Positions 1 to 50,343 of a DNA stretch of 64,000 nt are shown piece after piece (within the stretch, counting starts at the first letter, position 1; every line of letters begins with the position of its first letter). Both the position numbers and the translations under genes were made by a program. The notes under the pieces are model-generated. The model searched no databases. It saw nothing but the letters and a program-made list of their open reading frames with translations, and was not told where the DNA came from. Where the stretch lies: positions 3,677,659-3,741,658 of the forward strand of contig NZ_CP038033.1 in assembly GCF_004421105.1 (NCBI RefSeq). The letters run 5' to 3'. The stretch comes from Nitrosococcus wardiae (lineage in GTDB: Bacteria > Pseudomonadota > Gammaproteobacteria > Nitrosococcales > Nitrosococcaceae).

Positions 1-131
1 GGCTTTTTTCTTGCCTGGAAAAAAAGCTTGAGCACCAGCGCCGAAAAAGAGAAAAGGGGGTAGGGAATCTTTAAAAATTCACCATTCCATGTAAAGCTTA
101 AAGCGGTACTACCATTGATTTTGCTAAACGC

Positions 132-31587: not shown

Positions 31588-31646
31588 CCTTTGATTTATA
31601 TGGCGCGCCCGGAAGGATTCGAACCTCCGATTCCCTACTTCCTAGC
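31588..31646 (-). other. Left attachment site: tRNA-Arg 3'-end duplicate
   Basis: Positions 31588-31630 are identical over 43 bp to 50254-50296, which covers the 3' end of the tRNA-Arg(ACG) gene and 13 bp beyond it. Similarity continues with mismatches to about 31646 (into the anticodon arm) and then stops. This is not a functional tRNA. It is the att copy left at the far end of an element integrated into the tRNA gene. Confidence 0.88.
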
Positions 31647-45560: not shown

Positions 45561-45760
45561 CCTACCCACCCCCTAGAGCCGCGCCAATGCTGGCTTTCAA
45601 GACTGGCGCAGTTTCTAACTTACTCCCCCCCACCGGGGAACTTGCCTACCCCCCCCCCAATTTTTCGCGGCGGGTTTTCTGGACTTGTCTGGCTATTCTG
45701 CCCGAAGTGGTGGCATCACAATTCGTACCCCTGTTCAACACCGCCCTACGAGGTACAAAT

Positions 45761-46003
45761 ATGGGTGCGATAATCCTTAGACTTCCCGCCGTGAAGGCCC
45801 GCACTGGCCTTTCACGATCGACGATTTACCTACATATTTCCGAAGGTCGCTTCCCCAAGCCGGTGCCCCTGGGTGCACGCGCTGTGGGCTGGCCTGAGGA
45901 TGAAGTGAAGGCAATCAATGCGGCCCGCATTGCTGGAAAATCCGACGACGAAATCCGTGCGCTAGTGATCAAGCTTCACGCGGATCGCAAGACGCGGGCT
46001 TAA
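45761..46003 (+). CDS. AlpA-family excisionase/transcription regulator
   Basis: An 80-residue MerR-like winged-helix protein. LRLPAVKARTGLSRSTIYLH, SEGRFPKPVPLGARAVGWPEDE and VKAIN match the AlpA family, which activates excision or integrase genes in P4-like elements. The ATG at 45761 follows ACGAGGT; the open frame to 45587 is not used. It controls either the lost integrase or the module downstream, which begins 12 nt later. Confidence 0.88.
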   Translation: MGAIILRLPAVKARTGLSRSTIYLHISEGRFPKPVPLGARAVGWPEDEVKAINAARIAGKSDDEIRALVIKLHADRKTRA

Positions 46004-46015
46004 GGGGAGGCGGCC

Positions 46016-46195
46016 ATGAATAGAACAAGCATGGGGCGCGCTGGCGCACCCCGGAAAACTTCTAAAAATCACTTCAATTTTACTAGCCTCGCTTCCCGTA
46101 TCAAAGCGTTAATCGTCACCTTGGCTTTATGGGGCGTAATTCCCATAGGAGTGGCGGATTGGATTATTCGCCAAGGGAGGGCACACGATGATTAA
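46016..46195 (+). CDS. Small membrane protein coupled to the primase gene
   Basis: A 59-residue protein starting MNRTSMGRAGAPRKTSK with a basic N-terminus and one membrane helix (LIVTLALWGVIPIGVADWII). A strong GGGGAGG ribosome site precedes the ATG at 46016. Its last 8 bases overlap the start of the next gene (ATGATTAA at 46188-46195), a strong sign of translational coupling. No known family. Confidence 0.65.
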   Translation: MNRTSMGRAGAPRKTSKNHFNFTSLASRIKALIVTLALWGVIPIGVADWIIRQGRAHDD

Positions 46196-47090
46196 TCTCC
46201 CCCACTTCCGCGATGCCATCCGCGCTGCTGGGCTGGAACCGCCTGAGGTCATCGAGCCCGGCAAACGGCACCGATTCCCCGGCATCGGCAAGCGCCTGAG
46301 CAACCGGGCCGGATGGTGCCTCCTGTTCGATGACGGCTTAGGGGGCTGTTTTGGCGATTGGTCTTCCGGAATCGAAGCGGCCTGGCAAGCAAAACGAAGC
46401 ACGCCCTATTCACAAGCTGAACGGGCCGCCTTTACACGCCGGGTCGAAGCAGCGAAGGCGCAGGCCAAAGCCGAACGGGATGCTAGGCAAGACAGAGCGG
46501 CTAACCGGGCAGCCACGATCTGGAATGCGGCGACGCCCGCACCCGAAACGCATCCTTATCTCCTTCGCAAAGGCATCCAAGTCCACGGGGCGAGATGGTA
46601 CAAGGGGACGTTAGTGCTGCCCGTAGTGGATTTCACCGGCAAGCTGACCAGTCTGCAATTCATCAATGCCCATGGCGACAAGCGGCTCTTATCGGGTGGC
46701 CGCAAGCAGGGCTGCCTCATCCCCGTGTCCGGCCACAGGGGGGGAATCTCCCGTGTGATCCTCCGCATGATCCTCTGTGAGGGCTGGGCCACCGGCTGCA
46801 CCCTGGCAGAGGATGAACCCACCGCCTGGGTATTAGCCGCCATCGACGCCGGAAATCTGCATTCGGTTGCCGTGGCCGCCCGCTGCCACTGGCCTGCCGC
46901 GGAGCTCATCATCGCGGGTGACGATGACCGGCTCACCGCAGGCAATCCAGGCGCCACTAAAGCGCAAGCCGCCGCGATGGCCGCTGGCGCCCTGCTGGCG
47001 CTGCCCCCGTGGCCTGAAGGGGCGCCAGAAACCTTAAGCGACTTTAACGATTTGGCGGTGTGGTTGCGCCAGACAGGAGGGGGAGTATGA
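46188..47090 (+). CDS. Toprim-domain primase-like protein
   Basis: A 300-residue protein of the phage/satellite primase type (related to the P4-alpha Toprim part). The N-terminal third has WCLLFDDGLGGCFGDWSSG (a zinc-free variant of the primase N-domain). The middle has ATPAPETHPYLLRKGI and LVLPVVDFTGKLTSLQFI. The Toprim core has MILCEGWATGCTLAE (catalytic Glu) and ELIIAGDDDR (DxD). It ends SDFNDLAVWLRQ. It would start DNA synthesis of the island together with the DUF3987 protein that overlaps it by ATGA. Confidence 0.85.
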   Translation: MINLPHFRDAIRAAGLEPPEVIEPGKRHRFPGIGKRLSNRAGWCLLFDDGLGGCFGDWSSGIEAAWQAKRSTPYSQAERAAFTRRVEAAKAQAKAERDARQDRAANRAATIWNAATPAPETHPYLLRKGIQVHGARWYKGTLVLPVVDFTGKLTSLQFINAHGDKRLLSGGRKQGCLIPVSGHRGGISRVILRMILCEGWATGCTLAEDEPTAWVLAAIDAGNLHSVAVAARCHWPAAELIIAGDDDRLTAGNPGATKAQAAAMAAGALLALPPWPEGAPETLSDFNDLAVWLRQTGGGV

Positions 47091-48712
47091 GTTCTGATTT
47101 TTTAGCCCACCCTGAACCGCAGCATGCGCACAACACGCAAAATTCCTCTGAATCCAGGAATTCTGCGAATAATGCGAATTCTGCGTCTAGCCCTGCCCAA
47201 CTCTTATCGGCGGCGGCTCCCCCCACCGAAGCGTGGCCGGCACTGGTGCCGCTGGATGCGCCCAACCTACCCCGCCTCGATTTGGCTCACCTATCTAGCT
47301 GGGCAGGGGATTATGCTCGCGCCTTGGCGGCCGCCACTGAGACGCCGCCCGAATTGGCCGCAGGCATGGTGCTGGTGACCTGTGCCACCGCGGCCGCCCG
47401 CCGCCTGGAGGTGGAGGTAAAACCGGACTACGTTGAGCCTTGCAATCTCTGGGGTGTGGTGGCCCTGCCCCCTGGCAATCGAAAAAGTGCCGTGCAATCC
47501 GCCGCCACCGGGCCGCTACTCGATTGGGAGCGGGAGCAATCCGCGCGTCTGGCCTCGGAAATCGCACGCCTCACTAGCGAGCACAAGACGCTAGAAGCAC
47601 GTATCAAGGAGCGGCGCGGCCGGGCAGCTAGAGAAAAAGATCCTAGCAAGGCCGAGGCGCTCAAGCAGGAGGTTGCCGATCTGGAGGCTGAATTACCGGC
47701 AATCCCCTTGCCACCTCAGCTCTGGACCTCGGATGCCACCCCCGAGCAGCTGGGCAACCTGCTGGCTGCGCAGGGGGAATGTATGGCGTGGCTTTCCTCG
47801 GAAGGTGGCATCTTCGACTTACTGCAAGGCCGGTATTCCAGCGGCATTCCTAACTTGGATCTGGTCTTGAAGGCCCATAGCGGCGATTCAGAACGAGTAG
47901 ACCGGGGATCACGCCCGCCGGTCTATCTCGATAGCCCACGCCTGAGTATTGGTCTCAGCCCCCAACCGGAGGTGTTGCGGGGGTTGGCCGCTAAGCCGGG
48001 ATTCCGTGGCCGTGGCCTTTTAGCGCGCTTCTTGTATCTGTTGCCGCCCTCGCCGCTGGGTTACCGTACCTTGGACTCCGTGCCCATCCCGAAAGCGGTA
48101 GGCGAGGCCTATGCGGCGGGGATACGGGCCATGCTGGATTGGGAGGCCCTCACCAATGGGGAGAACGATCAGCGCCCCCACCGGCTGCGCCTAAGCCCTG
48201 AGGCCTATGCGGAGTGGCATGCTTTTGCCCGGGGCATCGAAGAAAAGATGCGTCCCGGCAACGCGCTGGAGCATTTCACCGACTGGGCAGGGAAGGCGCC
48301 AGGGACCGCTGCACGGCTCGCCGGCGTGCTGCATGGCATTAAGCATGCCCATGGCCGGCCCTGGGAGGCGGTGATCACGGCCGAGACCCTGAACGATGCC
48401 TTGGAAATAATGACCGTCATCACCCACCATAGTCTGGCAGCCCTGGAGATGATGGGCGCGGATCTTAGCATTGCCGCTGCCCGACGGGTATGGCAGTGGA
48501 TCGAAAGAGGTCGACTGCCCCATTTCTCCATACGCGAGGCCTTTAATGCCCTGCGGGGCACCTTCCCTCGGGTTTATCGCCTACGCGAGGCACTGGAGGC
48601 GTTGGAAGAACGTGGCTATGTGGACATCATTGAGCCGCCGCGAGAAGGCCCCGGCCGTCCACCCTCACCCATCGTCAGGGTGAGGCCAGAAATTGTGGAG
48701 GGGTGGCGATGA
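47087..48712 (+). CDS. DUF3987 (YfjI-like) replication-associated protein
   Basis: A 541-residue P-loop protein. The N-terminus (5-50) is a low-complexity Asn/Ser linker encoded by 9-bp repeats. Then LVTCATAAARRLEVEVKPDY, Walker A-like VALPPGNRKSAVQSA, a coiled coil (about 170-210), the Walker B-like CMAWLSSEGGIFDLLQGR and a winged-helix C-terminus are visible. The family is common in P4-like islands and takes the helicase role. ATG overlaps the upstream TGA. Confidence 0.85.
   Translation: MSSDFLAHPEPQHAHNTQNSSESRNSANNANSASSPAQLLSAAAPPTEAWPALVPLDAPNLPRLDLAHLSSWAGDYARALAAATETPPELAAGMVLVTCATAAARRLEVEVKPDYVEPCNLWGVVALPPGNRKSAVQSAATGPLLDWEREQSARLASEIARLTSEHKTLEARIKERRGRAAREKDPSKAEALKQEVADLEAELPAIPLPPQLWTSDATPEQLGNLLAAQGECMAWLSSEGGIFDLLQGRYSSGIPNLDLVLKAHSGDSERVDRGSRPPVYLDSPRLSIGLSPQPEVLRGLAAKPGFRGRGLLARFLYLLPPSPLGYRTLDSVPIPKAVGEAYAAGIRAMLDWEALTNGENDQRPHRLRLSPEAYAEWHAFARGIEEKMRPGNALEHFTDWAGKAPGTAARLAGVLHGIKHAHGRPWEAVITAETLNDALEIMTVITHHSLAALEMMGADLSIAAARRVWQWIERGRLPHFSIREAFNALRGTFPRVYRLREALEALEERGYVDIIEPPREGPGRPPSPIVRVRPEIVEGWR
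47123..47190. repeat. 9-bp repeat cluster A (iteron-like)
   Basis: Units such as GCGCACAAC, ACGCAAAATTC and, in reverse orientation, GAATTCTGCGAATAATGCG and GAATTCTGCGTCTAG. The two orientations form an imperfect inverted repeat around 47148. The cluster lies inside the linker codons of the DUF3987 gene. Confidence 0.7.
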
Positions 48713-49494
48713 GTTGGCGTGAAACGCTGGGAATGCTAGGCGTGACCCCTCACACTGAACATGCCTCTACGCGCAATTCGCACAATACGCAGAAATCCCC
48801 GGGGTCGAATCCTTCGGCAACGAGGACAGCTTCGGCAGATAAAGATTCTGTGGCCGCGGATTCCTTGACGCAATTTACGCACAATTCGCAAAAACCCCCT
48901 GAACCGGACCCTTCTGCGGATTATGCGGATTATGTGAATTCTGCGTCTAGGAATAGAGATTCCGAGCAAGCGGATTCCCAATTGCTGGAGGCCTTGGCCG
49001 AGGCCTGCCGTGGATTGCCCATTACCCCAGGGGAAGTACGGGAGGCCTTCACCCCGGAGGACATCGAGGAATGGCATAATGGCTGCCTCCCCCAGGACAC
49101 CTTGGCTACCTTTGCCCAAGCGCTGGTGCAACGCCGGGAAATGGATAAAGGAAAACGCCCGGCCCTATACACCGAGCCTGCCAGCTGCCAGCATTGCGGG
49201 CCGGTCTGGCTGTGGTTCTCCGGCGAGGTACAGGGGTGCCCCTGGTGTTGGAACCGGATAGCTAACCGGCCAATACCGCGCCCCCAGCCGGTTCGCTGTG
49301 GGGGCTGTGCCCATTTTCAACGTATCGACCACCCACACCTGGGCCATTGCGCCCAAGGGGAACCGGAGGGTATCTCGGGCTTGTGGGATACCGACCGGCG
49401 CCATTGCGAGCGGTATCTACCCCGGCCGGAAGCCCCGAATGATAGTCATTCGAGATGGAAAGGGCTGGAAATAAAAGGTGAATTTTCCAAATGA
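48709..49494 (+). CDS. Zinc-finger protein of the island replication module
   Basis: A 261-residue protein. Residues 10-80 are low-complexity (STRNSHNTQKS, THNSQKPPEP, SADYADYVNSAS) and encoded by repeat cluster B. The core is LLEALAEACRGLPITPGEVRE and EDIEEWHNGCL. Two metal-binding knuckles follow: CQHCGPVWLWFSGEVQGCPWC and RCGGCAHFQRI with HLGHC. ATG overlaps the DUF3987 stop (ATGA). A DNA-binding role at the repeats is possible but not shown. Confidence 0.75.
   Translation: MSWRETLGMLGVTPHTEHASTRNSHNTQKSPGSNPSATRTASADKDSVAADSLTQFTHNSQKPPEPDPSADYADYVNSASRNRDSEQADSQLLEALAEACRGLPITPGEVREAFTPEDIEEWHNGCLPQDTLATFAQALVQRREMDKGKRPALYTEPASCQHCGPVWLWFSGEVQGCPWCWNRIANRPIPRPQPVRCGGCAHFQRIDHPHLGHCAQGEPEGISGLWDTDRRHCERYLPRPEAPNDSHSRWKGLEIKGEFSK
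48768..48951. repeat. 9-bp repeat cluster B (iteron-like)
   Basis: Forward units (GCGCAATTC, GCACAATAC, GCAGAAATC near 48771-48797; GCAATTTAC, GCACAATTC near 48870-48890) are followed by reverse units (TTCTGCGGATTATGCGGATT at 48912-48931, then GAATTCTGCGTCTAG at 48936-48950). The last 15 bp are identical to 47176-47190. Confidence 0.7.
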
Positions 49495-50142: not shown

Positions 50143-50260
50143 AGAATTAGCCAAGCTAGCGCCTAGCAATTTGGAGAGTGGGGGTAAAAGTGGGGGTAAT
50201 TTTCGACTTTTTGCTAAAAACAAGAATGGCTTGATCCAGAAAATAACTCTAATCCTTTGA
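50129..50260 (+). pseudogene. Possible integrase C-terminal remnant
   Basis: A 43-codon open stretch after a TAG reads GFEELAKLAPSNLESGGKSG, then GNFRLFAKNKNGLIQKITL, and ends at the TGA at 50258-50260. SGGKSGGNF is typical of the C-terminal tail of tyrosine integrases that end at a tRNA. The stop codon lies inside the 43-bp att repeat, which fits an integrase reading towards the attachment site. No catalytic residues remain. Confidence 0.45.
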
Positions 50261-50266
50261 TTTATA

Positions 50267-50343
50267 TGGCGCGCCCGGAAGGATTCGAACCTCCGACCCC
50301 CTAGTTCGTAGCCAGGTACTCTATCCAACTGAGCTACGGGCGC
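50267..50343 (-). tRNA. tRNA-Arg (anticodon ACG)
   Basis: A 77-nt cloverleaf. The acceptor stem pairs GCGCCCG with CGGGCGC, followed by G and an encoded CCA. The anticodon arm is CCTGG CTACGAA CTAGG with anticodon ACG, and the T arm contains GGTTCGAATCC. It reads CGN arginine codons after A34-to-I editing. Its 3' half is the integration site of the island. Confidence 0.96.

Follow-up and report, generated by a model that had tools for sequence, protein, structure and literature searches.

The question raised by this locus is why short DNA repeats lie inside the coding sequence of two genes of a replication module. In the window, that is, the whole 64,000-nt stretch of the Nitrosococcus wardiae genome analyzed here, an initial annotation had described 9-bp repeats in both orientations, with forward units on the left and reverse units on the right, as a candidate iteron origin placed inside coding sequence and bound by a P4-like primase-helicase, or else as sites of the zinc-finger protein. 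A unit scan confirmed the repeats and their arrangement. The repeats are a real DNA-level element, as seen from the array itself, the constraint on its DNA, its linkage to DUF3987 helicase genes and its covariation with their winged helix. Cluster B, with clusters A and B1 as accessories, is probably an iteron-type replication origin of a tRNA-Arg island, bound by the winged helix of the island's own helicase; for this element we infer physical binding, helicase loading, melting and origin activity. The initial proposal is thereby supported at the sequence level, with the amendment that the conserved site is cluster B and that cluster A is sporadic.

Regarding the gene context, the module has the order AlpA, Toprim_3, DUF3987, ORF3 and ORF4. 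The AlpA-family regulator/excisionase (45587..46003, plus strand; Pfam PF05930) is followed by a Toprim_3 primase-like protein (46188..47090, plus strand; Pfam PF13362, phrog_2249 DNA primase) and by the proposed initiator, a DUF3987 (YfjI-type) MCM-like helicase of 541 aa (47087..48712, plus strand; Pfam PF13148, phrog_2373 DNA helicase, structure model). Its match to PF13148 (E=1.2e-104, 350.8 bits against a cut-off of 27) places it in this family. ORF3 (48709..49494, plus strand) encodes a Cys-rich, zinc-ribbon-like protein, with cluster B coding for its N-terminal linker; its homologs from gammaproteobacterial relatives have the array at the corresponding position. Two copies of a 43-bp direct repeat, neither assigned to a strand, bound an 18.7-kb island at tRNA-Arg: the proximal att-like copy lies at the tRNA-Arg 3′ end (50254..50296), and the distal att-like copy (31588..31630) is identical to that 3′ end. 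Of the genes that together would mark a PICMI-like phage satellite (integrase, AlpA and primase), AlpA and a Toprim primase are present here, along with DUF3987 and the tRNA att repeats, and a scan of seven island ORFs revealed no integrase; the island may therefore no longer be able to excise. Other cargo comprises genes for type I restriction-modification, for a cation efflux protein and for a GDSL lipase. An hsdR-like ORF on the minus strand (window:38857-40323) has 489 aa and is shorter than the usual HsdR, and the type I system may be incomplete.

Sequence reading combined with the unit scan of the window gave CGCANWATN as the repeat unit. In the conserved element, three units are followed, after a spacer of 17-18 bp, by three inverted ones, and the element ends about 120 bp past the DUF3987 helicase domain. 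The 9-bp repeat of the initial annotation was thus right, and its unit had to be completed to CGCANWATN and its element to two opposed sets of three units around an 18-bp spacer. Cluster A (47118..47185, no strand assigned), in the N-terminal linker of DUF3987, contains the forward units CGCAGCATG, CGCACAACA and CGCAAAATT, an 18-bp spacer and the inverted units AATTCTGCG, AATAATGCG and again AATTCTGCG. Cluster B (48869..48945, no strand assigned), likewise coding and near the ORF3 start, contains the forward units CGCAATTTA, CGCACAATT and CGCAAAAAC, an 18-bp spacer and four inverted units (TTCTGCG, GATTATGCG, GATTATGTG and AATTCTGCG), and represents the conserved palindromic iteron array and putative ori. 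B1 (48770..48796, plus strand) is a separate half-array of three forward units, which had initially been merged into cluster B; it lies at +81 from the DUF3987 domain end, close to the place of the forward arm in relatives (+63 to +75). The phased short direct repeats near an initiator gene that characterize iteron origins are present, as a 3+3 array of 9-bp units directly 3′ of DUF3987. The GC content of the clusters (about 51%, against about 62% around them) makes them only mildly AT-richer; the 17-18 bp spacers are not AT-rich but mixed or GC-containing, and no strong AT-rich stretch was found nearby.

Statistical and genome-wide comparisons support the reality of both clusters. A motif-blind detector that scores 9-bp periodicity and inversion alone (maximum 54) gave 46 for cluster A, with shuffles reaching at most 39, and 43 for cluster B, with shuffles reaching at most 38. 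The two-unit pattern CGCANWATNCGCANWA has eight matches in the 4.02-Mb genome, five in clusters A, B1 and B and three in a decayed ORF3 copy, and its reversed control has none in the same 4.02 Mb; the repeats are thus not common in the genome, as the initial reading required. The 15-bp end GAATTCTGCGTCTAG that clusters A and B had been said to share was recovered at 47176-47190 and 48936-48950, and only one further copy exists in the whole genome, inside decayed ORF3. Three decayed or partial ORF3 copies were observed in the same genome (G000:C1:3937152-3937715, 900659-901154 and 361520-361624; L003, L030, L032-L034), and a shortened CGCA array persists in the first of these. At the position of cluster A, no array was found in 15 of the 16 relatives checked, the remaining one (L127) having a half-array just before the helicase domain, and the linker carrying cluster A does not align in relatives. 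Therefore, cluster A is best seen, from these alignments, as a recent extra copy, with which its 15-bp identity to the end of cluster B is consistent.

The association of the array with DUF3987 was examined from both the DNA and the protein side. A paired pattern was searched over 11.3 million genome contigs and 2.9 million viral contigs; it was used in place of a strict pattern lacking the inverted half, which in viral contigs matched many single half-arrays unrelated to DUF3987. The matches fell into two kinds: full 3+3 arrays, most of them with a 17- or 18-bp spacer, and unrelated dispersed repeats in a few genomes. A DUF3987 ORF end lies 15-130 bp away from 30 of 41 distinct full arrays, and several of the remaining 11 are near the end of the fetched stretch. 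The hosts include members of Gammaproteobacteria, Alphaproteobacteria (Azospirillum), Magnetococcales, Deltaproteobacteria, Planctomycetota and Actinomycetota. Because searching with the motif itself is circular, a set of 53 distinct DUF3987 loci was also assembled by protein similarity or Pfam family. An array score of at least 40 was obtained within 800 bp downstream of the domain in 24 of these loci and within the same length inside the gene in none (0/53; Wilcoxon p=1e-7), and the array usually starts 45-100 nt past the DUF3987 domain. The other 29 loci fall under this strict threshold; the count of 24 is a lower bound, since the detector misses complex arrays such as that of an 866-aa DUF3987 in the window's own genome, which scores low in spite of many GCTA units downstream of its gene. 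This second DUF3987 gene is present in two matching copies with identical scores and lengths (G000:C1:16902-18008 and 4003788-4004894; L011, L012), and its GCTA-type units imply that one genome holds two putative origin types.

In close relatives, the arms of the array lie at +63..75 and +100..118 from the domain end. Distant DUF3987s of about 25-30% identity keep the layout with other units, namely GCTAC, GCTAT, GCTAA (GCTAN being one unit type among these distant members), GCGAC, AAAGNGA and GCGGAAACT. Strongly diverged DUF3987s on three viral contigs (L235, L237, L244) are accompanied by perfect GCGACNAAA 3+3 arrays with 16-18 bp spacers. A further unit type was observed on the Psychrobacter plasmid pA37P2 (L255, 9125-9420), which also encodes RepM, as CTTAAACTG/CTTAAGCAA repeats in both orientations after DUF3987. 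Among relatives of the window DUF3987 in phages and plasmids, few loci were found, mostly without arrays. No array was found anywhere in the examined stretch of the enterobacterial yfjI loci tested, including that of E. coli K-12 CP4-57, and the examined stretches around the enterobacterial DUF3987s L187 and L261-L266 likewise lacked a 9-bp array. Dispersed repeats in Variovorax sp. PCZ-1, Ramlibacter and Paludibacteraceae were excluded, as they occur without DUF3987. Many dispersed inverted CGCAAAAGA-like units were seen in Variovorax sp. PCZ-1 (L054, L057, L071, L082, L083, L085, L105, L108 and others) and Ramlibacter (L095, L125), and these constitute a different repeat family of similar period, away from DUF3987; in the Paludibacteraceae MAG Horse_feces158 (L065, L067, L091, L093, L100, L110, L114, L128), TTTCACGCAGAATACGCAGAA palindromes lie on many contigs with no DUF3987 nearby.

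These positional data bear on the possibility that the array is not an origin but an operator, at which DUF3987 or another module protein would regulate ORF3 and the downstream operon. Iteron-binding initiators frequently autoregulate, which counts for such a role, as does the fact that, in gammaproteobacterial loci, the array overlaps the beginning of the following ORF. Nevertheless, the distance from the helicase 3′ end is unchanged when the array lies in the helicase tail or outside genes or when the downstream gene differs, and two opposed sets of three phased sites exceed the needs of an operator, making this explanation unlikely, even though an operator role would be compatible with origin function.

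Regarding the protein that reads the units, indirect evidence for the helicase as the binder comes from its C-terminus. Structure modelling of the window DUF3987 (mean pLDDT 85) predicts a C-terminal winged helix (residues 460-541, encoded by 48464..48709, plus strand) with helices at 460-475, 482-488 and 496-508 plus wing strands, and this domain is the proposed unit reader on the basis of the model, wHTH matches in the PDB and covariation. A Foldseek search with the model returned MCM helicases as the top PDB matches, the best being an MCM subunit (E=1.5e-4, TM 0.36, a remote match), and, for the C-terminus, matches confined to the wHTH, such as RTP, ArsR and SarA; structural similarity together with the C-terminal winged helix thus points to an MCM-like AAA+ replicative helicase at the level of a remote fold match. 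No sequence match was found between the DUF3987 profile and solved structures. The model of a GCTA-type member is weak overall (pLDDT 61), with its C-terminal winged helix being confident.

One residue of the winged helix tracks the unit: Gln occurs with GCTA in 17 of 17 cases and Arg with GCGA in 9 of 9. This rule was formed on the first loci and then checked on loci from other queries, namely nine viral loci, the second DUF3987 of the window's own genome, four Legionella/Pseudomonas putida plasmids and L166, and it held in all of them. On a tree built without the winged helix, seven of seven supported independent contrasts agreed with the rule (sign test p=0.016), as did all nine on the best tree. 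The pair L211/L218, from one genome, has a near-identical helicase body, a diverged winged helix and different units (CTGCTATTC and GCGACACTT). A hybrid array with GCGAC units in its left half and GCTAC units in its right half was observed beside a broken DUF3987 reading frame (L206, G229). In the CGCA family, Phe or Tyr is found one position earlier in 32 of 33 proteins, and a relative with Gln in place of Phe/Tyr (L157) has CCCA units. Exceptions exist, since some proteins have Gln or Arg and no array, including enterobacterial L261-L264 with Gln at the GCTA-linked position and no 9-bp array in the stretches examined, or have unrelated units; therefore, at the sequence level, the rule is a correlation inside the GCTA/GCGA group and not a general decoder. 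As the models place the covarying residue at the end of helix 2, outside the recognition helix, direct base contact by this residue is only a guess.

The independent contrasts, in which unit type goes with the DUF3987 winged helix, also speak against the zinc-ribbon ORF3 protein or AlpA as the binder, for example at a partition, recombination or regulatory site. Such a role is suggested by the location of cluster B inside ORF3 and by the frequent occurrence of ORF3 and AlpA in gammaproteobacterial versions of the module; an ORF3 homolog was, however, not found in planctomycete or actinomycete array loci, and this reading appears distinctly improbable. Accordingly, of the two binders named in the initial annotation, the zinc-finger protein is disfavored, since DUF3987 has the array beside it even in phyla in which the search turned up no ORF3 homolog, and since the unit tracks the DUF3987 winged helix, and the P4-like primase-helicase has to be replaced, the protein being a DUF3987, MCM-like AAA+ by fold, rather than P4 alpha.

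Selection on the DNA itself is indicated by sequence comparison. Across an alignment of 48 arrays, the fixed bases of the unit hardly vary, in contrast to the free ones, and the encoded amino acids differ at precisely the free DNA positions. NCN codons in the coding arms end with G in 81 of 100 cases and with C in 0 of 100; the corresponding values for the DUF3987 ORFs of the same loci are 28% and 46%. In other taxa, the array is found in a different reading frame, in the DUF3987 tail or outside genes. Because synonymous sites are constrained and the reading frame differs between taxa, it is the DNA on which selection acts, which bears out the expectation of DNA repeats conserved among relatives in spite of varying encoded residues. 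The clusters had also been placed correctly in linkers tolerating protein change, cluster A in a DUF3987 linker predicted to be disordered (residues 1-47) and cluster B in the N-terminal linker of ORF3.

A hairpin in the 3′ end of the helicase mRNA, acting in attenuation or translational control, or a cruciform, could be imagined from the inverted repeats, whose outer flanks and spacer are sometimes partly palindromic. A structured RNA would show covariation between the arms, but the arms are uncoupled at free unit positions: position 14 pairs in 15 of 48 arrays (15.3 expected), position 23 in 15 (19.1 expected) and position 15 below chance. The arm-to-arm correlation is limited to the inter-unit base and the adjacent flank base, and that of the inter-unit base is expected if it belongs to a lineage-specific recognition site. 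The absence of arm covariation implies that the array is not an RNA stem, and this very improbable reading is largely refuted. Selection on a low-complexity protein linker with the repeats as a by-product, suggested by the single coding frame of the array in the window and gammaproteobacterial relatives, is hardly credible and, barring a codon-usage artefact, refuted by strongly constrained synonymous positions, along with amino acids that vary at free DNA positions, arrays in other frames or non-coding DNA in other taxa, and distant families that keep the DNA layout with other units.

For the preferred reading of cluster B as an iteron origin, the following mechanism can be proposed. DUF3987, an MCM-like AAA+ protein, would bind the 9-bp units one by one via its C-terminal winged helix, and since three units per side face each other, the helicase may assemble as two opposed groups corresponding to one or two hexamers. 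The assembled helicase would open the DNA, and the neighboring Toprim primase would start synthesis. The element at the 3′ end of the helicase gene would spill into the next ORF or the helicase tail, and therefore the affected proteins would carry a low-complexity linker tolerating the DNA constraint. When the winged helix is changed or swapped, the units would change along with it. Extended to the family, DUF3987 proteins would be widespread, self-sufficient initiator helicases, each reading its own origin of opposed 9-bp unit triplets beside its gene via the C-terminal winged helix and changing specificity when this helix is swapped or mutated along with the units; a residue code (Gln reading GCTA, Arg reading GCGA, Phe/Tyr one position earlier with CGCA) would then predict the origin from the protein. 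This general model is tentative, and we put its chances slightly below even.

No description of DUF3987 iterons or origins was found in the literature searched, subscription papers lying outside its scope, and the element is, judging from sequence comparison, most likely a new, putative iteron origin for a helicase family without a described one in that literature, with a testable specificity rule. The DUF3987 family is large, is common in islands, satellites and some plasmids, and still bears the label of unknown function. If the proposal is true, DUF3987 origins could be found from sequence across thousands of elements, minimal replicons could be built and tested in laboratory strains, and the covarying residue would give a direct test of initiator-origin coevolution. 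The origin layout would be kept across phyla while lying inside coding sequence, forcing a tolerant linker on two proteins.

Several known replication systems invite comparison. P4 alpha is a satellite primase-helicase that recognizes short iterons (ori/crr) in both orientations. The present module resembles it in combining a satellite replication protein with short iterons in both orientations, but the protein family is different, the unit sequence and layout are unlike, and the Toprim_3 protein and the DUF3987 helicase are separate. At the origins of SV40 T-antigen and papillomavirus E1, opposed recognition sites seed hexameric helicases. These viruses have served as a comparison for helicase origins (PMC7581432); theirs are, in contrast, viral eukaryotic SF3 helicases with an N-terminal origin-binding domain. 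CP4-57-type islands and PICMIs share the Pfam family and AlpA neighbors with the present island; PICMI replication needs the primase gene (DUF3987/DUF5906 model; PMC10803314) and DUF3987/YfjI is a predicted helicase (PMC5862659), but the papers found describe no origin or iterons, and K-12 yfjI has no array. In SCCmec, Cch2 shows specific binding to direct repeats that lie downstream of its operon (PMC7581432). The likeness lies in the MCM-like (Cch) or Cch2 helicase, whereas repeat length and symmetry differ and the DUF3987 profile has no sequence match to any solved structure. In SaPIs, the C-terminal domain of the helicase recognizes iterons directly downstream of its gene (PMC7581432), and for Gram-negative PICIs, plasmid maintenance in E. 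coli was assayed with a cloned rep-ori (PMC6092414). The present element is like those of SaPI and Gram-negative PICI Rep (Pri-Rep) in having two iteron sets immediately 3′ of the initiator helicase gene, which would here too be read by the C-terminal domain of the helicase. It differs from them in that the helicase is a DUF3987 protein and not one of those Rep families, that 9-bp units in a 3+3 inverted arrangement flank a GC-containing spacer of 17-18 bp rather than the AT-rich centre between the iteron sets of PICIs, that the array lies inside coding sequence, and that the unit type changes with the winged helix.
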